Of a DNA stretch of 34,817 nt, positions 630-27,540 are shown piece by piece. Origin of the DNA: Holophagaceae bacterium (lineage in GTDB: Bacteria > Acidobacteriota > Holophagae > Holophagales > Holophagaceae); contig JALRCU010000035.1 of assembly GCA_023257195.1 (NCBI GenBank), forward strand, positions 1 to 34,817. The letters are read 5' to 3'. The position numbers and the translations under genes were made by a program. How positions within the stretch are numbered: position 1 is the first letter of the stretch; each line of letters opens with the position of its first letter. The notes beneath the pieces were generated by a model. It did no database searches and had not been told where the DNA came from. It saw only the letters and a list, made by a program, of their open reading frames with translations.

Positions 630-1598
630 ATGGCCCACAGATCTAGGAGACTCAGGTTATCTTCAGCGATTCGTGAACTTATAGCCGAAACCAGAATCCA
701 TCCCTCTCAGCTTGTGCAACCTTACTTTGTGCAGGCCGCTGAAGGGACTTCTGAAATTCCAAGCCTACCTGGCATAAGTCGCATGAGTATAAATCCACTG
801 TTATCGCAAATCGAGAAAGATCTAAAAAATGGATTGCGCTCAGTTCTTTTATTTGGTGTGCCTGAATCGAAGACGCCTAATGGTCTATCTTCTAAAAATT
901 CAGATGATGTAATACCGAGGGCAATCAGAGATCTTAAAAAGACCTTTGGATCCGAACTGATTGTTATGTCAGACATTTGTCTTTGTGCCTATACAGATCA
1001 TGGTCACTGTGGTTTGATGGTGGATTCCAAAATTCATAACCAAAATTCTGTGGATGCACTTGTTGCCATGGCTTTGAATCATGCTGAAGCCGGAGTCGAT
1101 ATCGTAGCACCAAGTGACATGATGGATTTCCGCATTGGAGCTATTCGTCAAAATTTAGACATGAATAATTTTGAAGATGTTTCCATACTGAGTTATGCCA
1201 TCAAGCATGCCGGAGCCTACTACGGCCCTTTCCGAGACGCTGCAGGATCCTCGCCGAAATTTGGTGATCGCCAAAGCTACCAAATGGATCCCCGTAATGT
1301 GCGCGAAGGACTTAGGGATGCCCTACAGGACGAAGACCAAGGAGCAGATTTTTTGATGATCAAGCCCGCTCTCCCCAATTTAGATTTGATTTCCAAACTG
1401 AAAGAAATGACTTTAGCTCCACTATTTGCTTATCATGTCAGCAGCGAGTTTTCTTCCGTCAAAGCCGCAGATGCTAAGGGTTGGATATCTGGTGATCAAC
1501 TAATGCGTGAGCACTTAATCTCTATTAAGCGTTCTGGTGCCGATGTTATTGTCAGTTATGCTGCTCGTGAAGCCCTAGCCAAAGGCTGGTTCAGTTGA
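630..1598 (+). CDS. hemB: Delta-aminolevulinic acid dehydratase (porphobilinogen synthase)
   Basis: HemB condenses two 5-aminolevulinate molecules to porphobilinogen. The 322-residue length is normal. The metal-site motif SDICLCAYTDHGHCG has Cys117, Cys119 and Cys127, the zinc-type cysteine set rather than the magnesium-only variant. The two active-site lysines are Lys192 (in SYAIKHAGAYYGPFRDAAG) and the Schiff-base Lys245 (in LMIKPALPNLD). The ATG directly follows the hemD stop and the TGA overlaps the TTG of hemL by 4 nt, so translation is probably coupled. All key residues are present and no defect is visible. Confidence 0.97.
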   Translation: MAHRSRRLRLSSAIRELIAETRIHPSQLVQPYFVQAAEGTSEIPSLPGISRMSINPLLSQIEKDLKNGLRSVLLFGVPESKTPNGLSSKNSDDVIPRAIRDLKKTFGSELIVMSDICLCAYTDHGHCGLMVDSKIHNQNSVDALVAMALNHAEAGVDIVAPSDMMDFRIGAIRQNLDMNNFEDVSILSYAIKHAGAYYGPFRDAAGSSPKFGDRQSYQMDPRNVREGLRDALQDEDQGADFLMIKPALPNLDLISKLKEMTLAPLFAYHVSSEFSSVKAADAKGWISGDQLMREHLISIKRSGADVIVSYAAREALAKGWFS

Positions 1599-2854
1599 AC
1601 AACGATCGTCTTTATCGAGAATCTCTCAACCTCTTTCCCGGTGGTGTTAATAGTCCGGTTAGGGCTTTTAAGGCAGTTGGCGGTACGCCAAAATTCTTTA
1701 AAAAAGCGCAAGGAGCTTGGTTTACAGACGAAGAGGATCACCGATATCTTGACCTATGTATGTCATGGGGACCGCTTATTCTTGGTCATGCTCATCCCGA
1801 TGTGATCAACGCTGTAACTGAAGCCCTCAGAGAAGGCTTTACGTTTGGAGCTCCTTCTCGTCGGGAAAATGCTCTAGCTAAAAAAATAAAGAGCATGGTT
1901 CCTTTTGTTGAAAAAATGAGATTTGTATCAAGCGGGACCGAGGCAGTTATGTCTGCAATTAGAGTGTCAAGAGGGTTTACCGGAAGATCGAAAATACTCA
2001 AGTTTGAAGGTTGTTATCATGGTCACTCCGATGCCCTTTTAGTTAAAGCAGGCTCGGGGCTTGCTACCTTTGGAGAGCCATCAAGCGCGGGAGTCCCAAA
2101 GGAAGTTTCATATTTAACCTCCGTACTTCCCTTGGATAATATCGAGGCACTAGAATCTTTTTTTACTCTTCATGGTTCAGAATTAGCCGCGGCGATTATC
2201 GAGCCTATGCCTGCAAATAATGGCTTACTTCTTCAGGATCTAAGATTCCTAAAGCGCCTACGCGAACTATGCACCAAATATCAAAGTGTTCTCATATTTG
2301 ATGAAGTAATTTCTGGTTTTCGTGTTTCACCTTCTGGCGCTTCAGGCCTTTACAAAATTTATCCCGACATAGTGACTTATGGAAAAATTATTGGAGGCGG
2401 AATGCCAGTGGGTCTTTATGGAGGTCGATCAGACATCATGAGTTGCGTGTCTCCTGATGGACCCGTATATCAAGCTGGTACCTTAAGTGGGAATCCTATC
2501 GCCATGACTGCAGGGCTCGCCACGCTCGAACTCTTAGACGAAACCCTTTATGCTACCCTCCAAAAAAGAGGCGCGCAATGGTCCAAAATCTACGAACTTA
2601 TCCCAGGGTGTCGCTGCCCTCATGTTGGGAGTATTTTATGGCCAATTTTTCAACCAAGAGTCAAGCAGTCATCCGAGATTCAAGAATCATCTATAACTAG
2701 TTTTAATAAACTTCACCAAGGGCTTCTTTCCCATGGTGTTTACTTGCCCCCTAGTGGGTATGAAGTCACATTCTTAAGCCTTGCTCATCAAGAACCGGAA
2801 TTATCTTTTTTCCAAGACCAGATCAAAAAAATTATTACACTTCAAGGAAACTAG
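1595..2854 (+). CDS. hemL: Glutamate-1-semialdehyde 2,1-aminomutase
   Basis: HemL is the PLP enzyme that converts glutamate-1-semialdehyde to 5-aminolevulinate, so this organism makes ALA by the C5 (glutamyl-tRNA) route rather than by HemA-type ALA synthase. The 419-residue protein opens with LFPGGVNSPVRAF, a hallmark of the family, has FEGCYHGHSDALLVKAGSG around residue 140, the PLP-aspartate segment FDEVISGFRV near 235, and the PLP lysine Lys264 in TYGKIIGGG. Start is TTG at 1595 within a TTGA overlap with the hemB stop; no ATG gives a better N terminus. The substrate maker glutamyl-tRNA reductase is not in the window. Confidence 0.96.
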   Translation: MNNDRLYRESLNLFPGGVNSPVRAFKAVGGTPKFFKKAQGAWFTDEEDHRYLDLCMSWGPLILGHAHPDVINAVTEALREGFTFGAPSRRENALAKKIKSMVPFVEKMRFVSSGTEAVMSAIRVSRGFTGRSKILKFEGCYHGHSDALLVKAGSGLATFGEPSSAGVPKEVSYLTSVLPLDNIEALESFFTLHGSELAAAIIEPMPANNGLLLQDLRFLKRLRELCTKYQSVLIFDEVISGFRVSPSGASGLYKIYPDIVTYGKIIGGGMPVGLYGGRSDIMSCVSPDGPVYQAGTLSGNPIAMTAGLATLELLDETLYATLQKRGAQWSKIYELIPGCRCPHVGSILWPIFQPRVKQSSEIQESSITSFNKLHQGLLSHGVYLPPSGYEVTFLSLAHQEPELSFFQDQIKKIITLQGN

Positions 2855-3841
2855 TTGGATCCTTTGTTACTTAAAGTCCTGAATGGAGTTCGGACTCCTG
2901 AAACGCCCGTTTGGTTCATGAGGCAGGCGGGAAGATTTTTGCCTGAATATCGCGAAATCAGAAAGCAATATGCTTTTGATCAGGTACTAAATGATCCCCA
3001 ATTATCCAAGAAGGTGACTTTACAACCAATCCAAAGGTTTCCCAAGTTAGATGGGGCTATCATTTTTAGCGATATTTTAATCGTATTAAATGCGCTAGGC
3101 TGTAACGTTTCTTTTGAGCATGGATCTCCATCTATTGGCCGCACTCTCGATCAAATCTCCCTAAATGATCCGGTCGATTACTCTCATTTTGATACAGTTC
3201 AGGCTGCACTTAAATCAACTCGACTAGATTTACCCTCTCATGTCACATTAATTGGTTTTGCGGGAGCACCCTGGACCCTTTTTGCCTATGCTTGCGATGG
3301 ATCTAATAAAAATGGTTGGAAAAAGGCAAAAGAGCTCCTAACCCAAAAGCCATTAGAAGCTGAAGCATGGCTCAGTAAAATTAGTCGTGTAACGCGGGAT
3401 CTTCTACTACTTCAAATTGCTTCCGGAGCCCAAGTAGTTCAACTCTTTGATAGTTGGGCTGGAGATTTGTCAAATGATGAATATCTATCATGGGCGCTTC
3501 CCTACGCTGAAAAGACCCTCAAAGATCTTAAAGTGCCAAGAATATATTTTCCTAAAATGCAGGAAATCCCCGTACAGCTCCAATCTTTCGACTGTGAAGC
3601 ACTCTCTATTTCCTGGGAGAGTAGTCTTTTGTTAGCTCGCTCCCGTTTTTCAACAAAAATTCTTCAGGGTAATCTAGACCCAAAGGTTCTATTAGGCGAC
3701 GAAAACGAACTTGATAAACACGTTCAGGCAATTATGGAAAGCATGAAGAATCATGGTCATATTTTTAATCTTGGGCATGGAATACTTCCGCAGACTAATC
3801 CTAAAGCTATTCAAAGAATTCTAGATATGGTTAAGTCATGA
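2855..3841 (+). CDS. hemE: Uroporphyrinogen decarboxylase
   Basis: HemE removes four carboxyl groups from uroporphyrinogen III to give coproporphyrinogen III. The 328-residue protein has the signature PVWFMRQAGRFLPEYR at residues 18-33 with its substrate-binding arginines, FSDIL near 70, and the second signature GFAGAPWTLFAY near 138, and ends with FNLGHGILPQTNP, typical for the family. Start is a TTG immediately after the hemL TAG; upstream lies hemL coding sequence, and the N terminus at this TTG matches family length. Its last codons overlap the ATG of hemN (ATGA). No unusual residues were noticed. Confidence 0.96.
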   Translation: MDPLLLKVLNGVRTPETPVWFMRQAGRFLPEYREIRKQYAFDQVLNDPQLSKKVTLQPIQRFPKLDGAIIFSDILIVLNALGCNVSFEHGSPSIGRTLDQISLNDPVDYSHFDTVQAALKSTRLDLPSHVTLIGFAGAPWTLFAYACDGSNKNGWKKAKELLTQKPLEAEAWLSKISRVTRDLLLLQIASGAQVVQLFDSWAGDLSNDEYLSWALPYAEKTLKDLKVPRIYFPKMQEIPVQLQSFDCEALSISWESSLLLARSRFSTKILQGNLDPKVLLGDENELDKHVQAIMESMKNHGHIFNLGHGILPQTNPKAIQRILDMVKS

Positions 3842-5205
3842 CGCCCTCTCTTCAAGAACTGATCACTCGTTACGATAAGCCTGGTCCTAGATATACGGGA
3901 TACCCAATGCCTCCCGCATGGAACGATAATCTTGACGAATCTGTACTTCTTGAAGCCATAGATACTGTTTCGGAGCATGATGATTATTTAAGCGTCTATG
4001 TCCACTTACCTTTTTGTAAACGCCGCTGTTCTTATTGCGGCTGTAATGTAGTAATCAGTCCACAGTATGATCCTGTTGAAAACTTTTTGAAGAGCCTAGA
4101 CAAAGAGGCCGATTTGTGGAGTAAGCGCCTCATTAAGCCCCGAAAGATTATTCAAATGCATTGGGGCGGTGGGACCCCTAACTATCTAAATGCCAGTGAT
4201 TTATCGAGAGTTTTTCGCTCCGTAACTTCTAGGTTCGAAATTCTCCCAAATGCTGAAGTAAGCATTGAGATTGATCCAACTTTCCTCACTGTTGATCAAC
4301 TACCTGTTTTAAGAGATCTTGGTTTCAATCGGGTATCTTTTGGTGTACAGGATATGGATTTGGAAGTCCAAGAACTCATTACGCGCGGTCAAACACCCGA
4401 TCAAACTATTACGGCAATCGAGCAGGCACAATCCCTTGGTTTTAAGGGCATTAACATTGATTTGGTGTATGGCTTACCTGGACAAACCCCCAGTAGTTTC
4501 AAAATAACCATTCAAAAGATGATAGAACTCAACCCCAGTCGTCTTGCTATTTATGGTTTTGCATATTTACCCTCACTTTTACCATTCCAAAAATCCATTC
4601 CTCTTGAAAAACTTCCCCAACCCTCTGAAAGGCTAAATTTGCTATTAATGGCTTCCAGTATGCTTGAACAAGCAGGATACATTGCCGTTGGAATGGACCA
4701 TTTTTCAAGTCCCTCAGATGACCTTACGACTGCTTTGAATTCGGGTAAATTAGGTCGGAACTTTATGGGTTATGCTCCTCAAGTAGGAGAGCACATGGTG
4801 AGTATGGGGCCTAGTGCTATCTCGAATATTGGCAATGTTTATCATCAAAATCATAAAAATCTCAATCAATGGACTCAAGCAATCAATGAAGGTCATTTTG
4901 CCATGAGCAAAGGCATTAAATGTACCCCGGACGACTTATTAAGACGATGGGTTATACACACTCTGATGACGGAGTTCAGACTGGTATGGGCTAATTTTGA
5001 AAATAAATGGAAAATGGACGGAAAGACATACTTTCGTAATGAAATCGAATCACTTACCGCTGAAATTGAATATGGAACTGTGCTGATAACAAATGAGAGA
5101 ATCGAAATAACTGATATTGGAAAGCGGTTTATAAGAAATCTCGTGATGCCTTTTGATCGTTACTTGACGAATATTCCTAAGAGTAAATTTAGCCAAACTG
5201 TGTAA
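3838..5205 (+). CDS. hemN: Oxygen-independent coproporphyrinogen III dehydrogenase
   Basis: HemN is a radical SAM enzyme that oxidatively decarboxylates coproporphyrinogen III to protoporphyrinogen IX without oxygen. At 455 residues it is the full-length HemN type, not the shorter HemW. It opens with KPGPRYTGYPMPP, the HemN N-terminal motif, has the cluster cysteines Cys60, Cys64, Cys67 plus Cys69 in CKRRCSYCGC, a SAM-binding GGGTPNYL near residue 110 and the C-terminal segment VIHTLMTEF. The ATG overlaps the hemE TGA. No oxygen-dependent HemF is present here, yet a HemY-type oxidase follows two genes later. Confidence 0.95.
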   Translation: MTPSLQELITRYDKPGPRYTGYPMPPAWNDNLDESVLLEAIDTVSEHDDYLSVYVHLPFCKRRCSYCGCNVVISPQYDPVENFLKSLDKEADLWSKRLIKPRKIIQMHWGGGTPNYLNASDLSRVFRSVTSRFEILPNAEVSIEIDPTFLTVDQLPVLRDLGFNRVSFGVQDMDLEVQELITRGQTPDQTITAIEQAQSLGFKGINIDLVYGLPGQTPSSFKITIQKMIELNPSRLAIYGFAYLPSLLPFQKSIPLEKLPQPSERLNLLLMASSMLEQAGYIAVGMDHFSSPSDDLTTALNSGKLGRNFMGYAPQVGEHMVSMGPSAISNIGNVYHQNHKNLNQWTQAINEGHFAMSKGIKCTPDDLLRRWVIHTLMTEFRLVWANFENKWKMDGKTYFRNEIESLTAEIEYGTVLITNERIEITDIGKRFIRNLVMPFDRYLTNIPKSKFSQTV

Positions 5206-5224
5206 GAAATTATGGACACCCGCC

Positions 5225-6175
5225 ATGCATGCTAAAACAGCCATCGTAATGTTAAACCTAGGTGGCCCTGTCACCCTAAGCCACGTAGAACCTTTTTTGA
5301 AAACGTTATTCGGAGATCGAGATCTTATAAAATTACCTGGTCCTGCCTGGTTTCAGCCAACGTATGCATGGGGGATTGCAAAAATCCGTACAAAAGGAGC
5401 TCAGAAAAAGTATGCAGAAATTGGTGGCGGCTCTCCATTGCTACGCGAAACAGCCCTACAAGCCTCTTCACTGAGAACCGAGTTGAGGAGCCTAGGTTTT
5501 GAAGGTCCAATTAAATTAATATTTCGAACCTCTCAGCCAAGAGCAGAGTCGATGCTTAAGGTTCTGAAAAGAGAAGGTATTCATCAAATATTACCCTTAT
5601 CTCTTTATCCCCATGACTGTAAAGCCACAATTGGATCTAGCATGCGGGAGTTAGAACAACTTGCACCTAAATATGGAATTTCTATTCTTCCAGGAGTCCT
5701 TCATTATGCCGATCACCCAAAATACATTACTGCCCTAGGTCAGCTCATTCGGGATAAATTAGATGAACTCCCTTATGCTACGGTTATCTTTAGTGCCCAC
5801 AGTCTTCCAGTTAATCAGATTGAAAATGGGGATCCCTATGAAGATGAAATCCATAAATCAGTTGAGGCTATCAAACAATTTCTTGGGGATATTCCTGGTG
5901 GTTACCTGTTGGGTTACCAGTCTCGCGTAGGTCCAATCCGCTGGTTAACGCCATCCCTTAAGACTGTTCTCAAAGACTGCAGGGGTAGGGATGTGATTAT
6001 CGTTCCCATTTCTTTTGTTTCGGAGCATATTGAAACGCTACATGAACTCGATATTGAATACAGAGAAACTGCCCAGAAATTAGGTATCCGTAATTATGCA
6101 AGAGTTCAAACTGTGGGAATCAACTCTGAATTTATTCACTGTTTATCACAATTAGTGATTCAGAATCTTAAGTAG
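5225..6175 (+). CDS. hemH: Ferrochelatase
   Basis: HemH inserts ferrous iron into a porphyrin to make heme. The 316-residue protein starts with TAIVMLNLGGP, has GGGSPLL near residue 68, the catalytic His192 in FSAHSLP, the second active-site motif YQSRVGPIRWLTP near residues 231-243, and Glu270 in SEHIETLHELDIEY. The order hemN-hemH-hemY suggests the protoheme branch, with ferrochelatase acting on protoporphyrin IX; a coproporphyrin-dependent route is less likely because HemN is present. The spacer to hemN is 19 nt with no clear Shine-Dalgarno. No transmembrane tail is seen. Confidence 0.95.
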   Translation: MHAKTAIVMLNLGGPVTLSHVEPFLKTLFGDRDLIKLPGPAWFQPTYAWGIAKIRTKGAQKKYAEIGGGSPLLRETALQASSLRTELRSLGFEGPIKLIFRTSQPRAESMLKVLKREGIHQILPLSLYPHDCKATIGSSMRELEQLAPKYGISILPGVLHYADHPKYITALGQLIRDKLDELPYATVIFSAHSLPVNQIENGDPYEDEIHKSVEAIKQFLGDIPGGYLLGYQSRVGPIRWLTPSLKTVLKDCRGRDVIIVPISFVSEHIETLHELDIEYRETAQKLGIRNYARVQTVGINSEFIHCLSQLVIQNLK

Positions 6176-6181
6176 AAACTC

Positions 6182-7447
6182 ATGAAGAAAATTCTCATTA
6201 TCGGCGCTGGTATCTCGGGGCTCACTGCAGCCTATCGCCTTCAATCAGAGGGTTACGATGTTACGATCGTCGAGTCTAGTAAGGTTCCGGGGGGGTGGGT
6301 TCGAACTTTAGTTGATCCAAACGAAGGAAATATTGAAAAGGGCCCACAACTAATTGCGGTAGAATCCGGGACTCCTCTACGCTACCTACTTGACTCACTT
6401 GGAATACCTTTAACTATTCATCGAAATCTTTCAAGATTCATTGGCATTGACGGAAAACTAGTTCGCGTTCCAAGAAGTGTATCCGAGCTCTTTAGGAGCC
6501 CATTATTGACTCTAAAGGGTAAGTTACGGATTTTCCTAGAACCTTTATTGTGTTATTTTCTCAATAAAAATAAAGAATATACTCTTCATGAAGCCATAGG
6601 AAATAGATTTGGTTTTGAAATCGCAGATCGTCTTGCCCCAGCTATCGTAAACGGCATTCTTGCTGCTCCACCTAACGAAGTCTCGCAGGAGTCTATTCCA
6701 CTCTTCAGGATGGCTAATGAGGGCAGCGTATTATGGCGTTCAATTATGCGTGGTCATACTGTTTTGTCTACTCCTACAGGCGGAATGGGCGAACTTACTC
6801 AGGCACTTGCATCCAAATGTTCCATCATTTTTAATACCGAAATTACCTCTCTCAATTACTCCCAATCCTATTGGCATGCATCCGGTCCTACATATGATGG
6901 AAAATTTGATTCGATCCTTCTTGCAATCCCTGCTCCAAAGGCCGCGGCTCTTTTGTCTTTGATATCCCCCCGCTTATCTGCGATTTTAAAAAAAATTGAA
7001 TATACTTCCTTGTATTCATTCCATTCAACCCACGCCTACAACAATACTCTAGATAATAGTCTCGGCTTTCTATTGCATCCTAGTGAATCAGAATTTCTTC
7101 TCGGATGTTTTGTTTCTTCATCGCTCACAATACCTGATAAAGACAAAACCATTAAACTTCGAACCTTTGTCAAAATAAATCAGAACTCAATTCCTCGCTG
7201 GCAAGATATTTATAGTGAATTGATCAAATGGGTTCCCGATTTAAGTCCTAGCAATTCATGCCACATAGAAACAGCTTCTTTGGCTATCCCCATAATGAGA
7301 GTCGGTCAGTTTCCAGAGATTGTTAGAGCATTAGAAGATCTCCCTAGTGGGCTAGATTGGATCGGTGGAGCACGGTTCGGTCCAGGAGTAAAAGATATTG
7401 TTGACGGTATTGATTCTTGGATGAGCACATCTCGAATGCATGCTTAA
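6182..7447 (+). CDS. hemY: Protoporphyrinogen oxidase, HemY-type (FAD amine-oxidase family)
   Basis: This FAD enzyme likely oxidises protoporphyrinogen IX to protoporphyrin IX. The N terminus carries the dinucleotide-binding motif ILIIGAGISGLTAAYRL followed by VTIVESS and PGGWVRT, the substrate-proximal glycine-rich stretch. Around residue 155 APAIVNGILAAPPNEVS matches the HemY pattern (FVSGVYAGDPxxLS-like), GGMGELTQAL is seen near 200, and IGGARFGPGVKDIVDGI at the C terminus is the FAD-closing motif. At 421 residues it is somewhat short for HemY (about 450-470). HemY-type enzymes normally use oxygen, which contrasts with the oxygen-independent HemN upstream. The gene lies 6 nt after hemH and 27 nt before dnaX. 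Confidence 0.88.
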   Translation: MKKILIIGAGISGLTAAYRLQSEGYDVTIVESSKVPGGWVRTLVDPNEGNIEKGPQLIAVESGTPLRYLLDSLGIPLTIHRNLSRFIGIDGKLVRVPRSVSELFRSPLLTLKGKLRIFLEPLLCYFLNKNKEYTLHEAIGNRFGFEIADRLAPAIVNGILAAPPNEVSQESIPLFRMANEGSVLWRSIMRGHTVLSTPTGGMGELTQALASKCSIIFNTEITSLNYSQSYWHASGPTYDGKFDSILLAIPAPKAAALLSLISPRLSAILKKIEYTSLYSFHSTHAYNNTLDNSLGFLLHPSESEFLLGCFVSSSLTIPDKDKTIKLRTFVKINQNSIPRWQDIYSELIKWVPDLSPSNSCHIETASLAIPIMRVGQFPEIVRALEDLPSGLDWIGGARFGPGVKDIVDGIDSWMSTSRMHA

Positions 7448-8690: not shown

Positions 8691-8912
8691 TTATCCCCCA
8701 CTTACCGGGGGAAAAAAAGATACTCGAGAGCCTGACTCGATGATGTCAGATCCCGATGCAATTTTATGGTTGATGGCGATCAAAGCATTGGGGGGGATTG
8801 GCGTAAGTTCAGTTCTATCAAGAAGATCCCTTACGGTTCCTGTGAATTCGATATCCAATTCGGTTTTACCTATTAATTCTCGATACCGAGCAAAAAAGGT
8901 GATGTGGATCAC
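8691..8912 (-). CDS. moaD: Molybdopterin synthase sulfur-carrier subunit, MoaD-like
   Basis: A small beta-grasp ubiquitin-like protein ending in the diagnostic Gly-Gly (SFFPPVSGG), the C terminus that is thiocarboxylated to donate sulfur, here most likely to molybdopterin. It contains ITFFARYRELIG, the standard MoaD N-terminal pattern. I place the start at GTG 8912-8910: it overlaps the tamB TGA as GTGA, the usual coupled arrangement, and gives 73 residues beginning VIHITFFARY. A TTG at 8927 would add five residues that the family does not have. No moaE, moaA or other cofactor gene is in view. A ThiS-like carrier is an alternative, but the FFPPVSGG ending favours MoaD. Confidence 0.82.
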   Translation of the reverse strand: MIHITFFARYRELIGKTELDIEFTGTVRDLLDRTELTPIPPNALIAINHKIASGSDIIESGSRVSFFPPVSGG

Positions 8913-11900
8913 TTGTGCGAACTCCAATTAAATCTTAGTTCTCCCGAGGGATAAATACTATATCCAGCTGTTTGACTAAGGCCAAAATTGGCGAGTCCAA
9001 AAGGAAAGCTCCATTGAAGCTTCGCAGAGTTGATTCGGAGATCGCCAATCTGATTCTGGCTCAATATAAGCGGGTAGGGAGTATTCCATAAATTGATCCC
9101 TACCTGATAACTACTCTCTAATCTCCCACTAGCTCCAGTTCTTATATTGATCAGAACTCGATCCAATCCTAAAGACTTCCTTAGTCTAGTTTGAAGATCC
9201 GACAAGATGAGGGAAGTAAAGAGGCTGCTTCCACTACTGCTATAGGCTTGGTTTGAAAGGGCTTGATACCCAGTTGTACCTGTGTAAGAAACCGTTGAAG
9301 AGTAGAGTCGTGTTGCGTAGTCAGGATCCATTAATAAGGCAAATATCTCGTCTCTTTTTAGAGACGGAGTTGCTGCTGCTTGGATTTTTAAATCTGAAAG
9401 TTTCCCAACTAATCCTAGATTAAGTTTGTAGCCAGGCACAGTGAGCGAGCCTTGAATGTCTATCTGGGGGTCCTTCAAGTCGTCAATGATCTGTATTACT
9501 CCTCGCTCTAATATCAAGTCTCCCGCAGGAAAGACGTTGGCGACTCTCCCGGTAGAGGTAAGCGCAATTTCACCTTGGAAAATGGGGCGGAGGAGGGTTC
9601 CAAGAACCTTAAATGGTCCACGTGGCTTTAGTTCAGCCTTAATAAATTCAGAGTCATAACGCCAAGAATAATTGGAGTCGATATTGATATCCAACTGTAA
9701 ATTATCAAGGAAAAGATCATTTTTTGTAACGAGATCCCCCCTTTTCTTCGAACTAGAGGATATTGTTTCAAACAGTTGATTCTCGTCAAAATAGGATAAT
9801 TCTTGAACATTAAGATTACCCGTTAAGACATTGGAAGATGCCGATGATATAAACCCAAATGAAGCGTCAGCTTTAATTTTTAGACCGTCCCAACCAGGGA
9901 AACTTTGTATGTAGATATTTTTGGCTTGAGCAGATAATTGTATATTTTTTACTTGTCGCAAATTCCAATCCGCTCCCCCAGTTATTTTCATGGAAGATCC
10001 AAAGAAATCTCCTCTGATAGGGTTTTTCGCATCTATATCGATCCGAAGATCAGTCAGATTGATCTTGCCATCAAAGTGTTGAAGTAAGTTCACCTTCTGA
10101 TAGGTGAAAGCAGCATCCCTTAGGTCGATTTGACCTGCTAACTTTGGGGTATCTGCATCACCTGTCACTTTTATTTGATAATGGCTTCGACCACTTAATT
10201 CGTATTCTTGTTGAACAAAAGGTCCCGTACTAGATCGGAGGCGAGTAAGAATATCCGATAGGTCCTTAATTGAGGTTTGCCCTAAGATTTCCAAATCGTA
10301 TTGTGAAGAAGGGCCCCAAGGAAAAAATCCTTTGATGGTAAAGAATGATGTTTCATTGGCTTCCTTTTCTAGAAGATTAGTAAACGAGAAATTTACACTT
10401 ATACGATCTTGATTTCCCGAAAGAGTAAATTCTTTTTTTCTGTCTAACCCGTATTTATTAAGAATTCCGGTCAGATTTAAAATATTGAGAGAATAGTTGA
10501 ATTCGGAGAGCTTCGAGTCAAACTGCCCTTCAATATCAAATGTCGAAGATCCCAATAAACGCTCAAGGTAGGTATCAGTCAGAAAATAGCTTAAATAGTG
10601 GTCATTCAGCTGCTTCACCGAAAATATTCCCTTACTAGCTGACTCATTTCCAGTGGCCTTGAGTTCGACGAGGCGTTGCTCCAATTCGATGTCATCAAGA
10701 GTCACACTTAAGTCCTTGCCATCGAAGGCATAGAGGAAACGAAGCTTATTTTTTGAGTCAGGATAGGGAACAATCTTAATTTGGCCAAGGGGGTAAGAAA
10801 AATACCCAAAAGGTCTGTTTAGGTCTCCATCGAGGTCTACATTAATCAAGCCAGAAATAATGTTTCCACGCGCTTGTATGGTTGACTTTAAGTCCCCAGT
10901 AATCTTTATTGAAGATGTCCGCTCTTTAAGATTGAAAAAGGCTTCTCCCTTTAGCCCCTTTGCATCTGTCATGGGTGAGGAAGAGGTTGTATCACTAGTA
11001 ATAGTTTTGAAATCTAGTATGCCAAGTTTCTTTCGTCCTTCATCGTATCTAACTTCGAATGAGAGAGGAGGAAGTGAATAAACACCCCATCTCGGGTTAT
11101 TTAAAGACAACTTCGCATTAATATTTAAGCTAGATCTTTGTCCGTTGATATCTAGGCGACCTGAAAAAGTAGAATTAAAAATGGGATTAAAAGTCCATAA
11201 ACTCATCATTTCTCGATAATCATTATCAATGAAATTTATATGGCCTGTGATCCCCTCTTTGCCGGAGCCCAATGGGTAACTTAAGGCACCGGATAGTTTA
11301 TTTCTTCCTTGAGATTCAAGTTCTGTTAATTGGATATGATTTGGTGTAATTGATATTTTTCCCGAAAGGGTATCAAAACGTAGCAAATTGACGTTGAGGT
11401 CTTTAATAGTGAAATCGCCATCAATCAACCTTAGATCATCTTCTTGAAAAAGGGTCCCTTTAGCTTCGAAATGACCCCCTAGGGACGTAAGCCCACCTAA
11501 TGCAGCAGAGTTACCCACCTTCAAAGACTGAAGATTGTATTTGAATATAAAGTCAATCTGATTGGGTGGGGGCATTGGAGATGTGATCGACCTAACAGAA
11601 AGCTCTCCACTAGTAAAAGATAGGGTTCTCAATCTTATTTTTCCATCTTGAAAATCAAGATCAAAGTTTCCAAGATTTTGATTATTTTTTACAAAATTAC
11701 CTTTAAAATCTGAAAAATGAAGATCATAAAGGGATAAGAGATTATGAATTCGCATTCGTCCCGTTGCATTTATATTGATCTTATTTAAATCCGATATCGA
11801 GAGAGGCAGTTTAAATAGTTTTATCGGGTACTTCATTATGCTGACGGTGAACTCGTCTTGATCCATCTTTGTTAACTCGATCAGTCCGCGATCCATTGTA

Positions 11901-12847
11901 ATTTTTGTGTAGTCTAGTTTAAGTATTTTGGTGTAAGAATTGGTGGGAATATGTGCTAGAAGTTGCGCTTTGATGGGTTGTTTTGAAGAAGTTAATTTCA
12001 CTTCGGTATCAATAAAAAATCTCCAGTCCGAATCTTTCGACATTCGGTTTATTTTTATCGATGTTTGCGTATGTTTAATATTCGAAGCCCCTAAAGCTGA
12101 GAGAAGGCTGGGGGGTTTTAAAAAAATATTACTGTCTGAATAAAGCGAATACTTTGTCTCACCCGTACCGAGATGGATCTGGCCATCACCTTGACCCGTG
12201 ACTTTGGGTGTTTGAAATGCTATTCGAGTTGTTAAATAATTACCTGAAGACAATTCGCCAATCAAATTCATGGAGATAGGCACGCTTACTCCGCTTTGCC
12301 TTAGAACGAATCGTGAATCACCTCTAAAGTTGATATAGCCATCTTTTCCTTGAGAAAGCTGGGCATCAAAACGATAAAGTCCCATGCCTAAGACTAGACT
12401 TTGATCTAAAACATTGGCTATTGCTGATTTGATAGTTATTTTTGGAACCGCTAAGAAACTCGATGAAGCAGTTTGGGACTTCCAATTAATTCTCGAGCGT
12501 GTCTTTTCAGATAAATTAATTACAGGGTTCTCTATTTCAATTGAATCAATTCCAATACCACCTTTGATAAGATCTATCACGGCTAATTTTATATTCGCTT
12601 TAGGTATAGTAACTAATCCTTCGCCTAGTTCAATTTCGTTGAGGACAATAGTGCGATTAATAAATTCTACGGTCCCGCTTTTCACACGAGTGTTGAGACC
12701 TGTACGCCTCTCGATTTCGGCAGATACCAAGTTAACCACTTTGGTCGTTATCCATGATTCTTTTGAGGGCGCATATTTCTCGCTACTCGAGCTCTGAGCT
12801 ACGAGTAAATTAACGGACAGAAAAATAATTAATTTAGTTCGCCACAT
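8909..12847 (-). CDS. tamB: TamB-like translocation and assembly module / AsmA-superfamily bridge protein
   Basis: A very long protein (1312 residues from ATG 12847) with a hydrophobic N-terminal signal or anchor (KLIIFLSVNLLVAQS) and then almost entirely short alternating beta strands, as in TamB/YdbH-type periplasmic beta-taco proteins. The last about 300 residues fit the TamB C-terminal domain (DUF490): GRVANVFPAGDLILERGVI, IDIQGSLTVPGYKLNLGLVG, ATPSLKRDEIFALL and a final strand SGELRFNWSS. Such proteins bridge inner and outer membranes and act in outer-membrane protein or phospholipid transport. A GTG at 12856 would add three residues; ATG is preferred. The start overlaps the upstream kinase by 19 nt. 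No tamA or bamA is adjacent. Family assignment is firm at the C terminus, weaker elsewhere. Confidence 0.85.
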   Translation of the reverse strand: MWRTKLIIFLSVNLLVAQSSSSEKYAPSKESWITTKVVNLVSAEIERRTGLNTRVKSGTVEFINRTIVLNEIELGEGLVTIPKANIKLAVIDLIKGGIGIDSIEIENPVINLSEKTRSRINWKSQTASSSFLAVPKITIKSAIANVLDQSLVLGMGLYRFDAQLSQGKDGYINFRGDSRFVLRQSGVSVPISMNLIGELSSGNYLTTRIAFQTPKVTGQGDGQIHLGTGETKYSLYSDSNIFLKPPSLLSALGASNIKHTQTSIKINRMSKDSDWRFFIDTEVKLTSSKQPIKAQLLAHIPTNSYTKILKLDYTKITMDRGLIELTKMDQDEFTVSIMKYPIKLFKLPLSISDLNKININATGRMRIHNLLSLYDLHFSDFKGNFVKNNQNLGNFDLDFQDGKIRLRTLSFTSGELSVRSITSPMPPPNQIDFIFKYNLQSLKVGNSAALGGLTSLGGHFEAKGTLFQEDDLRLIDGDFTIKDLNVNLLRFDTLSGKISITPNHIQLTELESQGRNKLSGALSYPLGSGKEGITGHINFIDNDYREMMSLWTFNPIFNSTFSGRLDINGQRSSLNINAKLSLNNPRWGVYSLPPLSFEVRYDEGRKKLGILDFKTITSDTTSSSPMTDAKGLKGEAFFNLKERTSSIKITGDLKSTIQARGNIISGLINVDLDGDLNRPFGYFSYPLGQIKIVPYPDSKNKLRFLYAFDGKDLSVTLDDIELEQRLVELKATGNESASKGIFSVKQLNDHYLSYFLTDTYLERLLGSSTFDIEGQFDSKLSEFNYSLNILNLTGILNKYGLDRKKEFTLSGNQDRISVNFSFTNLLEKEANETSFFTIKGFFPWGPSSQYDLEILGQTSIKDLSDILTRLRSSTGPFVQQEYELSGRSHYQIKVTGDADTPKLAGQIDLRDAAFTYQKVNLLQHFDGKINLTDLRIDIDAKNPIRGDFFGSSMKITGGADWNLRQVKNIQLSAQAKNIYIQSFPGWDGLKIKADASFGFISSASSNVLTGNLNVQELSYFDENQLFETISSSSKKRGDLVTKNDLFLDNLQLDINIDSNYSWRYDSEFIKAELKPRGPFKVLGTLLRPIFQGEIALTSTGRVANVFPAGDLILERGVIQIIDDLKDPQIDIQGSLTVPGYKLNLGLVGKLSDLKIQAAATPSLKRDEIFALLMDPDYATRLYSSTVSYTGTTGYQALSNQAYSSSGSSLFTSLILSDLQTRLRKSLGLDRVLINIRTGASGRLESSYQVGINLWNTPYPLILSQNQIGDLRINSAKLQWSFPFGLANFGLSQTAGYSIYPSGELRFNWSSHK

Positions 12848-13785
12848 TTTGGGCACACGGTCGACATTCTAGCAAGAGGTGTATAGCAAAATATACAAAC
12901 CTTGCCTGTTACAGAATTCTTGGGGGCAGGTACTCTTGATAGAGTCCTGGAAACAGTACCTGTCGTTAAGGGATTTGCGGGTCGAGATTCATTTTCTTTC
13001 ATTACTTTTAGAGCATTCAAAAGCTTTTCTGTTGATGCATATCTTTCACCTAAATTGACCTGAAGACATTTCATTATAATTTCTGAGAACGCTTTGGGTA
13101 CTTCCAGGACTTTAAGGTGAGGTGAAATAATTCTCTGTTCATCAATTGATTGCGCTATCTTCAAGGGATCGGGATCATAGAAAGGAACAGTACCGGTTAG
13201 CATTTCGTAAAAAGTAATACCCAAACTCCATATATCAGATTGAAAAGTTGCTAGTCCCCGGAAGTGTTCAGGCGCCATATAGGGCGGGGATCCAACTCGC
13301 GTCATTGCAGGGGTCAGGGCTAAAATACGGCTCGTTCCAAAATCCGTAACTTTAGCTATACCTTCTCTTGTAATCAAAATATTGGCAGGTCTGATGTCCC
13401 GATGTAAAACCTTCTTGGAGTGAGCAAAAGCAACTCCCGAGGTGATGCCGATAGCAAGATCCAATGCTAGTTCGGGCAAAAGTTTTTTTTCTCTTCGGAT
13501 CATCTTATCAAGACTTTCACCCTCGATGTACTCTAAGACCATAAAAAATATTCCATTTGTTCGCTCGGCTGTAATCATTTCTGCAATATTTAAGTTTTTT
13601 AGCTCCGACATAATTCTAGGCTCTTTGAGCATTTCTATAACTTCCTCTTCTTGTTGGTGAGGAACCTTTATCGCTACTTTACGATTTATCCAGGTGTCCA
13701 ATGCTAAGTAGACCGAACCAAATCCACCCGAGCCTAGGCGATCAAGGATTTGGTATTTACCGAGCGTTTGGTCTTTAGCGAGCAC
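12829..13785 (-). CDS. Ser/Thr protein kinase (PKN/Hanks type) with C-terminal zinc ribbon
   Basis: A soluble eukaryotic-like kinase of 318 residues with no membrane segment. Kinase landmarks: glycine loop GSGGFGSV (18-25), Lys40 in VAIK, catalytic HRD (128-130), DFG (148-150) and MAPE (170-173). The catalytic loop reads HRDIRPAN, with Arg where Ser/Thr kinases nearly always have Lys two residues after the Asp. After a Thr/Ser/Pro-rich linker (about 265-295) the protein ends in a zinc ribbon, CxxC at 297/300 and CPKC at 311/314. Start is GTG at 13785 with AGGAG 7 nt upstream. It sits between rpoD and tamB and its end overlaps tamB. The target is unknown; regulation of RpoD-linked functions or the envelope is only suggested by position. 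Confidence 0.9.
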   Translation of the reverse strand: MLAKDQTLGKYQILDRLGSGGFGSVYLALDTWINRKVAIKVPHQQEEEVIEMLKEPRIMSELKNLNIAEMITAERTNGIFFMVLEYIEGESLDKMIRREKKLLPELALDLAIGITSGVAFAHSKKVLHRDIRPANILITREGIAKVTDFGTSRILALTPAMTRVGSPPYMAPEHFRGLATFQSDIWSLGITFYEMLTGTVPFYDPDPLKIAQSIDEQRIISPHLKVLEVPKAFSEIIMKCLQVNLGERYASTEKLLNALKVMKENESRPANPLTTGTVSRTLSRVPAPKNSVTGKVCIFCYTPLARMSTVCPKCGELN

Positions 13786-22805: not shown

Positions 22806-23309
22806 ATGGCTTCAGAATGTAGTTTTGATGTAGTTTCTAAAGTAGATTTTCAAGAGGTCAAGAATGCTACAGAGCACTCGTTGAAGGAGATTAAACAGCG
22901 GTATGATTTCAAGGGCTCAGTATCAAATATTGAATTAAGTGGCACGGACAAGATAATTCTTACTAGTGATGATGAAATAAAACTCAAAGCAGTTATTGAT
23001 GTTCTTCAGAGTAAACTCTTTAAGCGTGGAGTAAGTATTCGCTCCCTGACATACGGCAAAATACAGCAGGCATCCAAAGGGACGGTACGACAAGAAATCA
23101 CCATCTCACAGGGTATTCCGCAAGATAAAGCAAAGATCTTCGTTAATGGCATCAAAGAAAAAAAATTCAAAGTCCAAGTCTCTATCCAGGGAGATCAGTT
23201 GAGAGTTTCAGGCAAAGACAAAGATACTCTACAAGAAGTTATTGCCTACATTCGCCAGGAACAAAATCGAGCTAATATCGATGTTCAAATTGTTAACCTA
23301 AGAGGATAA
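22806..23309 (+). CDS. yajQ: YajQ family nucleotide-binding protein
   Basis: A 167-residue UPF0234/YajQ protein. The opening ECSFDVVSKVDFQEVKNA, then EIKQRYDFKGS, and QEITISQGIPQDKAKIFV in the second half are near-invariant in the family. Two ferredoxin-like halves bind nucleotides; a Xanthomonas relative is a cyclic-di-GMP effector, but whether this one is cannot be told. Start ATG at 22806 with a GGAG-containing leader. The TAA is immediately followed by the ATG of the prenyl synthase. Confidence 0.94.
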   Translation: MASECSFDVVSKVDFQEVKNATEHSLKEIKQRYDFKGSVSNIELSGTDKIILTSDDEIKLKAVIDVLQSKLFKRGVSIRSLTYGKIQQASKGTVRQEITISQGIPQDKAKIFVNGIKEKKFKVQVSIQGDQLRVSGKDKDTLQEVIAYIRQEQNRANIDVQIVNLRG

Positions 23310-24308
23310 ATGAGCATCGTCACTTCCGCTCGTATCTTTGATTCAGTCCGAGGGGATTTGTCCTTAGTTGAGTCCGAGCTCTCAAGACTTCTGACCCAAA
23401 ATAAAATTGAGGTCATTGATAAATTTTCCTCCCACATACTCAATACATCAGGTAAAAGATTACGCCCAGCACTGCTTCTTTTATCGACCAAAGCTTTTAA
23501 CGTCTCGTCTGAAATAGCTATAAGGTTTGCTTGCGTTTTTGAGCTAATTCACACGGCTACCCTAATTCATGACGATGTAATTGACCACTCAGCGACCCGA
23601 AGAGGAAGCAAAACTCTCAATGCACTCTGGGGCAATAATCTGACAGTGCTTTTTGGCGATCTTCTCTATCTTCGAGCTATGTCCTCTGCAATTGAGGGCC
23701 GAAATTGGCGTATGATGGAAGTTCTCTCCGAAGTAACATCCAAAGTCATCGAGGGAGAACTCATACAGCACGATCATCTTTTTGATATTCACCTAAATCG
23801 AGACCAATATTTTGATATTTTAGAACGTAAAACAGCATTGTTATTCGCAGCATGCTGTAAGTCAGGCCCAATTCTATCTGGCGCACCAACTGACATAGTT
23901 AGGGACCTTGAAACTTATGGACTCCACCTAGGAAGAGCTTTTCAACTTATCGACGACCTGCTGGACTATTCTTCAACAGAGTCCCAATTAGGTAAGCCGG
24001 TGTTCACGGATCTGAAAGAAGGTAAACTGACACTTCCACTTCTCCTCCTCAAAGACGTAATCCCCAAGATAGCCGACCCTCTGATAGAGGACTTTTGGTC
24101 CATGAACCGCACTGCAGAAAGTCTTAATTCTTCAGCTTCTCAATTAAAAACCCTACTCCTGCAGCACCAAACACTCGAGCAGACCTATAACCTAGCCAAG
24201 GAAGAAACTGAGAAAGCTCTAGCCATTTTGGATACCCCTTTTTATAAAAGCGATTCCTTCAGTTTTTTAAAAATATTACCGAATTTACTGCTTGATCGCA
24301 TAAAATAA
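23310..24308 (+). CDS. ispB: Long-chain polyprenyl diphosphate synthase, IspB-like
   Basis: A 332-residue trans-isoprenyl diphosphate synthase. Both aspartate-rich motifs are present: DDVID in LIHTATLIHDDVIDHSATRRG and DDLLD in FQLIDDLLDYSST. The small residue (Ala in HTATLIHDD) before the first motif fits an octaprenyl/heptaprenyl-type, long product, probably the side chain of a quinone. It abuts yajQ with no spacer. The next gene is a rhodopsin 45 nt on; this enzyme makes linear prenyl chains and is not by itself a retinal gene. The symbol is by similarity; chain length is not proven. Confidence 0.88.
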   Translation: MSIVTSARIFDSVRGDLSLVESELSRLLTQNKIEVIDKFSSHILNTSGKRLRPALLLLSTKAFNVSSEIAIRFACVFELIHTATLIHDDVIDHSATRRGSKTLNALWGNNLTVLFGDLLYLRAMSSAIEGRNWRMMEVLSEVTSKVIEGELIQHDHLFDIHLNRDQYFDILERKTALLFAACCKSGPILSGAPTDIVRDLETYGLHLGRAFQLIDDLLDYSSTESQLGKPVFTDLKEGKLTLPLLLLKDVIPKIADPLIEDFWSMNRTAESLNSSASQLKTLLLQHQTLEQTYNLAKEETEKALAILDTPFYKSDSFSFLKILPNLLLDRIK

Positions 24309-24353: not shown

Positions 24354-25040
24354 ATGATCGAAAATCCGCTTATATCCAGTGCTTACTCTTTTGCAATAGC
24401 GTGTTTTGGAGCGACCACTGTCTTCTTGTTCCTTCAAAGACAACAAGTCGCAACTCAATACAGGACAGCTGTTACGATTTCAGGAGTCGTAACCCTAATC
24501 GCTTGCTATCACTATTGCCGTATTGCTTACGACTATTCACTTCTTCGATCCACAGACTCCTATCGCTACGTTGACTGGCTTTTAACAGTCCCCTTACTTT
24601 TAATCGAATTCATTCTAGCGTTACGATTATCCGAAAGCGAGACTCGCTCTAAATCATTTCTTCTCTCTATCCTCGCCATCTTGATGATTGTTATTGGCTA
24701 CAAAGGTGAAATGGCCCCAGTTGGAAGCTCGGATGGACTTCTCTACTTCATTCTTTCCTGTATCCCATTCATTTTTATCCTTCACCAACTATTCTTCGGT
24801 CTTTCAAAATCTATCGAGGCCCAACCAGCATCCTCCAAATCATTAATTTTGAATGCTCGTAATCTAATTGCAATTACGTGGTTTTTCTATCCTGTTGTAT
24901 ACGCCCTGAGATTTACAGGTTTTGATCCCGCATCTCCGTCTATCCAAATAGGCTATACGATTGCTGACATTGTGGCTAAATCCGGTCTAGGTATTATGGT
25001 TTACTCCGTCAGCATGAGAAAAACTGCATCAGGAAATTAG
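24354..25040 (+). CDS. Proteorhodopsin, predicted green-absorbing proton pump
   Basis: A 228-residue seven-helix microbial rhodopsin. Helix C reads RYVDWLLTVPLLLIEF: Arg71, proton acceptor Asp74, Thr78 and proton donor Glu85 form the DTE set of proteorhodopsin proton pumps. Leu82 is at the spectral-tuning position 105 of proteorhodopsin, where Leu gives green absorption. His53 (CYHYCRIAY, helix B) matches the Asp-partner histidine; helix F WFFYPVVYAL gives Trp176, Tyr179 and Pro180; retinal lysine is Lys209 in ADIVAKSGLG. At the helix E site where antenna-binding pumps have Gly, this has Phe by eye, so a carotenoid antenna is not expected. RBS GAGG 8 nt upstream. Retinal synthesis genes are absent nearby. 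Confidence 0.93.
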   Translation: MIENPLISSAYSFAIACFGATTVFLFLQRQQVATQYRTAVTISGVVTLIACYHYCRIAYDYSLLRSTDSYRYVDWLLTVPLLLIEFILALRLSESETRSKSFLLSILAILMIVIGYKGEMAPVGSSDGLLYFILSCIPFIFILHQLFFGLSKSIEAQPASSKSLILNARNLIAITWFFYPVVYALRFTGFDPASPSIQIGYTIADIVAKSGLGIMVYSVSMRKTASGN

Positions 25041-25146: not shown

Positions 25147-26316
25147 TTGAATATACATGAATATCAGGCAAAAGAGCTCCTAAGAAAATTCGATATTTCC
25201 ACTCCCAACGGGCAGATTGTAGAGAGCCCAGAGGAGGCCTTTTTTCTGACAAAGTCCTTCGGTGGAACTTCAATTCTTAAGGCACAAGTTCATGCTGGAG
25301 GACGTGGGAAGGCAGGAGGGGTCAAATTCGCTCGAAGTCCCGAAGAAGCCAAATCCCTATTCAATTCAATTATGGGGATGACTTTAATTTCTCCACAAAC
25401 AGGACCCCAGGGAAAGATTGTTAGAAAAGTTTATATAAGTGATCCTGTTGATATTGATCGAGAGTTTTATCTGAGTATCCTAGTGGATAGAAAAACAGGC
25501 CGTGTTGCAGTAATTGCCTCTCGGGAAGGGGGGGTAGAAATCGAGAAAGTTGCTCATGAAACTCCCGACAAAATAATGACTTTTACAATCGATCCTGCAG
25601 TTGGACTCACAGATTTTCAAATTAGAAAACTTGCAAGTCTTTATGGCCTCGATACTCCACAAGTTAAGTCTCTAAAATCCTTCACATCAGCTCTTTACAA
25701 GTTATTCCTTGAAAGCGATTGCTCATTAGTTGAAATTAATCCCTTGGTGGTCACCAAGCAAGGGAGCCTTGTCGCCCTGGACGCAAAAATCTCCCTTGAT
25801 GATAACGCCCTAGGTCGCCATCCTGATCTTTTGGACTATCGAGATATAAATGAGGAAGTAATTGAAGAAATAGAAGCCTCTAAATATAATTTAAATTTCA
25901 TCAAACTGAATGGATCGATTGGGTGCATGGTCAATGGTGCCGGTCTCGCCATGGCCACAATGGATATTATTCACTTTTACGGATCCGAACCTGCTAACTT
26001 TCTTGACGTGGGAGGAGGCGCAAGCGAGAACGCAGTAAAAAATGCATTTAGAATCATTCTTCAAGATCCTCAAGTTAAAGCTGTTTTGATTAATATCTTT
26101 GGCGGTATTATGCGGTGTGATATCGTAGCGTCCGGAATTGTAAAGGCAGCCCAAGAAATAGGCATGAAGGTTCCAGTAGTTGTTCGTCTTGAAGGCACTA
26201 ATGTTGACAAAGGTAAAGAAATATTAAAACAGAGTGGCTTGAATCTCATTGTTGCGGATAATCTTCGTGATGCTGCCGAAAAAGCGGTCGCAGCCGCCAA
26301 GGCTACCCATGACTGA
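25147..26316 (+). CDS. sucC: Succinyl-CoA synthetase, beta subunit (ADP-forming)
   Basis: The ATP-grasp beta subunit of succinyl-CoA synthetase, which in the TCA cycle makes ATP from succinyl-CoA. 389 residues. It begins NIHEYQAKELLRKF, has the nucleotide-loop LKAQVHAGGRGKAGGVK, the Mg-binding VEINPLVV near 197, and the C-terminal NIFGGIMRCD with the family ending VVRLEGTN. Start is TTG at 25147 (codons TTG AAT ATA) with GAGG 5 nt upstream; this gives the canonical N terminus. It overlaps the next small gene by 8 nt. The spacer to the rhodopsin gene is 106 nt. Confidence 0.96.
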   Translation: MNIHEYQAKELLRKFDISTPNGQIVESPEEAFFLTKSFGGTSILKAQVHAGGRGKAGGVKFARSPEEAKSLFNSIMGMTLISPQTGPQGKIVRKVYISDPVDIDREFYLSILVDRKTGRVAVIASREGGVEIEKVAHETPDKIMTFTIDPAVGLTDFQIRKLASLYGLDTPQVKSLKSFTSALYKLFLESDCSLVEINPLVVTKQGSLVALDAKISLDDNALGRHPDLLDYRDINEEVIEEIEASKYNLNFIKLNGSIGCMVNGAGLAMATMDIIHFYGSEPANFLDVGGGASENAVKNAFRIILQDPQVKAVLINIFGGIMRCDIVASGIVKAAQEIGMKVPVVVRLEGTNVDKGKEILKQSGLNLIVADNLRDAAEKAVAAAKATHD

Positions 26317-26656
26317 CCAAGATAAAGATCAGTATCAAAATCTCCTTAATGAGTTCAGGGAAGTGATGTATCAAAACACCTGGAAACTAGGGTGGAATTT
26401 CTTTTTTCTATTTGTTGGGTTATTACCCCTCATGTACTTTTTCGTTTGGATTATTGGCGCAGAGAACTGGGAACTTACTCTTTTTCGTACACCATCCTTA
26501 ATGTTGGTAGGCTCCCTTGTCTCGCTTCTCATTGTTGTTACGCTACTAGTTAAAATCTACCGAGATAATCTCAAATTAGACGCGCTTAAAAACGATTATC
26601 TCACTCGACTCAATGCCATGAGACCCGAGATTCATCAAGACCAGCCCCAATTATAG
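26309..26656 (+). CDS. Small two-helix membrane protein between sucC and sucD
   Basis: An unrecognised 115-residue protein. After a charged N terminus ([15 protein letters not shown]) come two hydrophobic segments of membrane length, about residues 32-54 ([20 protein letters not shown]) and 66-91 ([20 protein letters not shown]), then a charged C terminus. The ATG at 26309 lies inside the end of sucC and overlaps its TGA by 8 nt; the frame is open further upstream but that would run inside sucC. It is 14 nt before sucD, so all three are likely one transcript. This position splits a pair that is nearly always adjacent. The role is unknown. Confidence 0.75.
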
Positions 26657-26670
26657 AAAAAGGTGTTTCT

Positions 26671-27540
26671 ATGTCGGTACTTGTAACTCCATCAACTCGA
26701 CTCATTGTTCAGGGTATCACTGGCAAAGAGGGGCTTTTCCACGCCAAGGGTTGTCGTGACTATGGCACTAATGTAGTTGGTGGGGTTACCCCCGGCAAGG
26801 GAGGGACTTCGATTGACGGCTTCGACGTTTATAATTCAGTCGAAGAAGCGATCTCTAAGACTTCTGCAAATGCCACCATGATATTCGTGCCTCCTTTATT
26901 TGCGGCCGATGCTATTCTCGAGTCACTCTATGCGGGAATCGAAGTAATCGTTTGTATCACTGAAGGAGTTCCGGTTTTAGATATGGTGAAAGTCAAACGT
27001 GCGTTGTCTGATTTTCCCCACTCTAGGCTCATCGGCCCCAATTGCCCCGGCGTTATTTCGCCCGGCATTGGAAAAATCGGGATCATGCCCGGATCAATCC
27101 ATAAGCAAGGAAATATAGGGGTCGTCTCTAGGTCTGGGACTTTAACTTATGAAGCTGTTGGTCAACTTAGTGCTCTCGGAATCGGTCAGTCATCTTGTAT
27201 TGGCATCGGAGGTGATCCCGTTAATGGAACTAGTCATATTGATGCCTTATCGCTGTTCAATCAGGATAAAGATACCCACGCAGTGATTTTGATAGGTGAA
27301 ATAGGCGGAACTGCAGAGGAAGAAGCTGCAGAGTGGATTAAACATCACTTTAAAAAGCCCATCGTTGCTTTTATTGCAGGTCAAACGGCCCCCCCTGGTA
27401 GAAAAATGGGGCACGCTGGGGCCATTATATCGGGTGGAGCAGGCACCGCTTCCTCTAAGATGGATGCTCTTAAGGCTGCTGGTGTCCATGTTGTCGAAAG
27501 CCCTGCAGAACTAGGTTCTACACTCCAATCCTTGATTTAA
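26671..27540 (+). CDS. sucD: Succinyl-CoA synthetase, alpha subunit
   Basis: The alpha subunit that binds CoA and carries the phosphohistidine. 289 residues. [18 protein letters not shown] near residue 10, GGVTPGKGG and [10 protein letters not shown] in the Rossmann half, [10 protein letters not shown] near 170, and the active-site His in [14 protein letters not shown] near residue 247. ATG start with AAAGGTG just upstream. Together with sucC it forms a complete synthetase, despite the gene between them. Confidence 0.97.

Follow-up and report, generated by a model that had tools for sequence, protein, structure and literature searches.

A rhodopsin gene at 24354–25040 of the window, by which we mean the whole stretch of 34,817 nucleotides analysed here, raises the question of what type of pump it encodes, in which host, and how the retinal is supplied. 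Our analysis, which draws on sequence comparison and a predicted structure, suggests with good confidence that the product would be a functional, light-driven, green-absorbing pump of the xanthorhodopsin type that moves protons outward, that its host is a freshwater member of the Acidobacteriota with a streamlined genome, and that its retinal would be obtained from the environment.

The open reading frame was bounded exactly at 24354 and 25040 on the + strand, beginning with ATG and encoding a product of 228 aa, in which residues 11–217 matched the Pfam family Bac_rhodopsin with an E value of 1.1e-35. The AlphaFold model of this protein exhibited seven long helices with a mean pLDDT of 93.9. 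In an alignment with green proteorhodopsin (GPR), for which the reference sequence was verified against PDB entries beforehand, H75, R94, D97, T101, L105, E108, and K231 (GPR numbering) corresponded to H53, R71, D74, T78, L82, E85, and K209 of the window protein, bearing out all seven positions that a sequence-only reading had named, and D227, W197, and Y200 (GPR numbering) were likewise retained. The features of a type I proton pump were present, with Lys209 in helix G, the D74-T78-E85 set in helix C, R71, and the helix G counter-ion D205. The motif set is complete, and the claim of a proton-pump rhodopsin with green-type residues is supported.

The same locus was found in a Lake Biwa MAG of the same genus (BJFQ01000005.1, 'Acidobacteriota bacterium LBMAG_Acidobacteria_hypo.bin1'), in which the rhodopsin was 81% identical to that of the window and the gene order was the same. 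A chance open reading frame or a misbinned contig was ruled out by this shared gene order in an independent MAG. Between the two rhodopsins, dN was 0.14 and synonymous change was saturated, similarly to the housekeeping neighbours, which indicates that the protein has been kept under selection; judged from these substitutions, the purifying selection is strong. It might be supposed that the gene is non-functional, or that its product serves as a light sensor or as an opsin without retinal, as no known retinal pathway was found. However, this is highly improbable in view of the low dN, the fact that both species retain every pump residue, among them Glu85 as the cytoplasmic donor, and the finding that no transducer gene is adjacent to the rhodopsin gene. 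The G+C and GC3 of the gene were those of its neighbours, giving no sign of a recent arrival. A scan of viral contigs for a viral origin gave no relative, and a promoter scan returned about as many matches as were obtained with shuffled sequences.

The sequence-only reading had taken the protein to be a green-type proteorhodopsin. To the contrary, a phmmer search ranked xanthorhodopsin first (5e-42), followed by Gloeobacter rhodopsin, psXR, and Kin4B8, whereas GPR reached 2e-28, and the best fold matches by Foldseek were psXR, xanthorhodopsin, Kin4B8, and Gloeobacter rhodopsin, ahead of proteorhodopsins. In a tree of 49 sequences including two outgroups, a split with a support of 99.5/100 separated the window protein, its Lake Biwa counterpart, their alpha- and gammaproteobacterial relatives, and the xanthorhodopsins from the proteorhodopsins and the two outgroups. 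The sister grouping of the window protein with the proteobacterial sequences was weakly supported (33/52), and the AU test did not reject its position outside the proteobacterial and xanthorhodopsin sequences (p 0.44). A true membership in the marine green-proteorhodopsin clade would be in line with Leu105, the Phe at the fenestration position, and the short B-C loop, all of which match GPR, but we consider it scarcely tenable, because the tree places the protein with the xanthorhodopsin-type group, the AU test rejects its grouping with the proteorhodopsins (p 0.032), and xanthorhodopsin-type pumps top both the sequence and the fold matches. GPR itself (2L6X/7B03), although sharing the DTE residues as well, lies in a separate clade and is 28–29% identical to the window protein over the fold alignment. 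Thus, as indicated by sequence, predicted fold, and tree, the window protein belongs in the xanthorhodopsin-type group.

Within this group, xanthorhodopsin (3DDL), Gloeobacter rhodopsin (6NWD), and Kin4B8 (7YTB/8I2Z) are the most similar to the window protein in sequence and fold and carry the same DTE residues. They differ from it at the site of the carotenoid antenna, where Gly156 of xanthorhodopsin gives space for the carotenoid (PMC13093654). The position of the antenna-type Gly (156 in SrXR and 153 in Kin4B8) holds a Phe in both the window protein (Phe132) and its Lake Biwa counterpart, and the B-C segment that corresponds to His62–Arg93 of xanthorhodopsin consists of 19 residues in the window protein, compared with 32 in those three pumps and in most of the group. 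In close proteobacterial relatives, the fenestration position is occupied by Gly in seven of eight sequences and by Trp in the remaining one. Because Phe132 fills the lateral antenna site, the window protein probably lacks an antenna and would pump without one. It may be possible that the change from Gly to Phe and the loss of the long B-C hairpin accompanied the loss of carotenoid and retinal synthesis, resulting in a minimal antenna-free pump that depends wholly on scavenged retinal, but we put this forward tentatively and lean somewhat against it. Both the Phe and the short B-C stretch resemble proteorhodopsin, and they could be old features that have been retained rather than losses, the tree being compatible with either history. 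The combination of a closed antenna site in a protein of the xanthorhodopsin type and a genome that lacks carotenoid genes offers a simple and testable prediction.

With respect to the host, a deltaproteobacterial-grade lineage had been considered, but all the evidence points elsewhere. The host MAG belongs to the Acidobacteriota and has a size of 1.195 Mb at 97% completeness, whereas the rest of the sampled Holophagaceae have genomes mostly of 2–5 Mb. UBA12189 (Acidiparvus) is the sole Holophagaceae genus of this small-genome kind that Wong et al. 2024 describe, with genomes of 1.12–1.37 Mb, MAGs from Lake Biwa among others, and a haem pathway that is complete in most of its MAGs (PMC11561045). 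The host of the window shares these traits, having a Holophagaceae genome of less than 1.4 Mb, haem genes, and the Lake Biwa MAG as a genus mate, and several lines thereby converge to indicate that the host genus is almost certainly UBA12189/"Acidiparvus". The genes of the window and the Lake Biwa MAG were 71–84% identical at the DNA level, indicating that the two are different species. The GC content of the window contig, a value for this contig only, was 42.1% and thus slightly below the published genome range of 44.3–48.7% for Acidiparvus (PMC11561045); this small mismatch may be local or may mean that the window comes from a further species of the genus. As a separate observation, the compact haem biosynthesis cluster of the window (630–7447, + strand; hemB, hemL, hemE, hemN, hemH, and protoporphyrinogen oxidase, then dnaX) agrees with the published Acidiparvus haem pathway.

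To examine the source of the retinal, the MAG was searched by protein families; at 97% completeness, a few genes could be missing. The remark that no crt or blh gene lies nearby held for the entire window, and its extension to the genome gave the same picture. No match for blh (PF15461) was obtained in three genomes of the genus, whereas each of six control genomes with a rhodopsin had it; crtB and RPE65-type oxygenases were unmatched in the genus genomes, the window MAG included, with the control genomes being positive for both. The search for crtI retrieved only a short N-terminal nucleotide-binding fragment and no full gene: the match at 6194–6307 comprises merely 38 residues of an FAD-binding N-terminus, and the gene that contains it is protoporphyrinogen oxidase (6182–7447). 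The match for crtY, also of 38 residues, was under the cut-off and likewise represents a nucleotide-binding fragment. Two MAGs of the genus lack the whole retinal pathway, and crtY, crtI, crtB, and crtE are reported to be absent from all 66 UBA12189/Acidiparvus MAGs (PMC11561045), to which the absence of blh and of RPE65-type cleavage enzymes is an addition. In two relatives (G048 and G061), the rhodopsin gene is found in one stretch with crtI, crtB, crtY, and blh. Among the 396 genomes sampled, seven bear a rhodopsin, of which two are Acidiparvus; blh was found in all five others. These five (L071–L075) are Acidobacteriota with proteorhodopsin-like or other rhodopsins, and in two of them (L073 and L075) Lys replaces Glu108.

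As none of the known retinal-making genes is present in the cell, other organisms are the most likely suppliers of its retinal. A comparable case would be the actinorhodopsin of Rhodoluna lacicola (9HFK), a xanthorhodopsin-type pump of a freshwater host that lacks blh and needs external retinal (PMC7734400), although it is only ~36% identical to the window protein and has Gly at the fenestration position; according to the account of Keffer 2015 given in PMC7734400, pumping in R. lacicola occurred only once retinal was added. By analogy with this bacterium, uptake is the most likely source. The pump could also be functional with retinal that the cell makes by a novel route, as there is a precedent in Aurantimicrobium minutum, a small-genome freshwater bacterium that lacks blh and diox1 and produces retinal by an unidentified route (PMC7734400), and the strong purifying selection on the rhodopsin would suit this as well. 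It is, however, unlikely, since the 97%-complete MAG contains no crtB and gives only fragments for crtI and crtY, so that nothing points to a carotenoid precursor, and the crtI fragment is part of protoporphyrinogen oxidase.

With retinal taken up from outside, the pump would operate as follows. On illumination, the retinal attached to Lys209 would isomerise, and its Schiff base would give up its proton to Asp74, the partner of His53. A proton would be released to the outside, and Glu85, on the cytoplasmic side, would reprotonate the Schiff base. The green absorption would be set by Leu82, Phe132 would occupy the lateral antenna site so that pumping proceeds without an antenna, and the retinal would be supplied by other organisms. 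We infer this cycle, with Asp74 as the acceptor, Glu85 as the donor, and Lys209 as the Schiff-base residue, from the mechanism that is established for DTE rhodopsins, and we likewise infer pumping, colour, the lack of an antenna, and the retinal source; what the analysis itself shows is the predicted fold, the residues, the lineage, the purifying selection, and the absence of the genes.

The sequence-only reading had also proposed that, given a deltaproteobacterial-grade host, the gene would widen the known host range or point to transfer, but rhodopsins in this genus have already been published by Wong et al. 2024, who found 62 rhodopsins in 66 Acidiparvus MAGs, all with DTE, all with Leu105, and with conserved flanks (PMC11561045). 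Those rhodopsins are nearest to alpha- and gammaproteobacterial DTE rhodopsins, have conserved host flanks without crtEBIY in the genomes, and show no essential difference from that of the window. They are named proteorhodopsins there, and the main text makes no mention of carotenoids or xanthorhodopsin (PMC11561045). The principal facts, namely the rhodopsin gene and the absence of crtEBIY, were thus published in 2024, and the detail of the antenna site is a modest addition. As the bacterium is abundant in lakes, a pump for which the pigment probably has to be obtained from outside the cell bears on the sharing of retinal in plankton.

Regarding the gene neighbourhood, the identities proposed for the upstream polyprenyl synthase and the downstream sucC were confirmed, but a meaningful link between the rhodopsin and the prenyl synthase was not. 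The rhodopsin gene follows a gene for a YajQ-family nucleotide-binding protein (22806–23309, + strand) and one for a long-chain polyprenyl diphosphate synthase (23310–24308, + strand), for which solanesyl, heptaprenyl, and octaprenyl (long-chain) models scored highest, none of them at its cut-off. The synthase is ~47–57% identical to a gene in all the sampled Holophagaceae genera, in most of which it lies directly or closely after yajQ, as in the window. The YajQ–prenyl synthase pair is old and occurs in genomes of other Holophagaceae genera that have no rhodopsin; among the sampled Holophagaceae, a rhodopsin is found behind the synthase in the window's genus only. As judged by homology, the synthase is probably an ancestral host gene for the quinone side chain, and the possibility that it is a relic of crtE was rejected because of the family-wide YajQ neighbour. 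For the genus member G001 (84% complete), a loss of the rhodopsin was not concluded, since the long-chain prenyl synthase next to it is absent from this MAG too and the locus is therefore probably missing from its assembly. Elsewhere in the window, a 1315-aa protein without a Pfam match is encoded at 8909–12856 on the − strand and adjoins a protein kinase gene (12829–13785). Downstream of the rhodopsin gene, sucC (25147–26316, + strand) and sucD (26671–27540, + strand) encode the beta and alpha subunits of succinate-CoA ligase, and this usual pair is split by a gene at 26249–26656 (+ strand) for a small protein that has hydrophobic stretches and no Pfam match and is 69% conserved in the Lake Biwa MAG.
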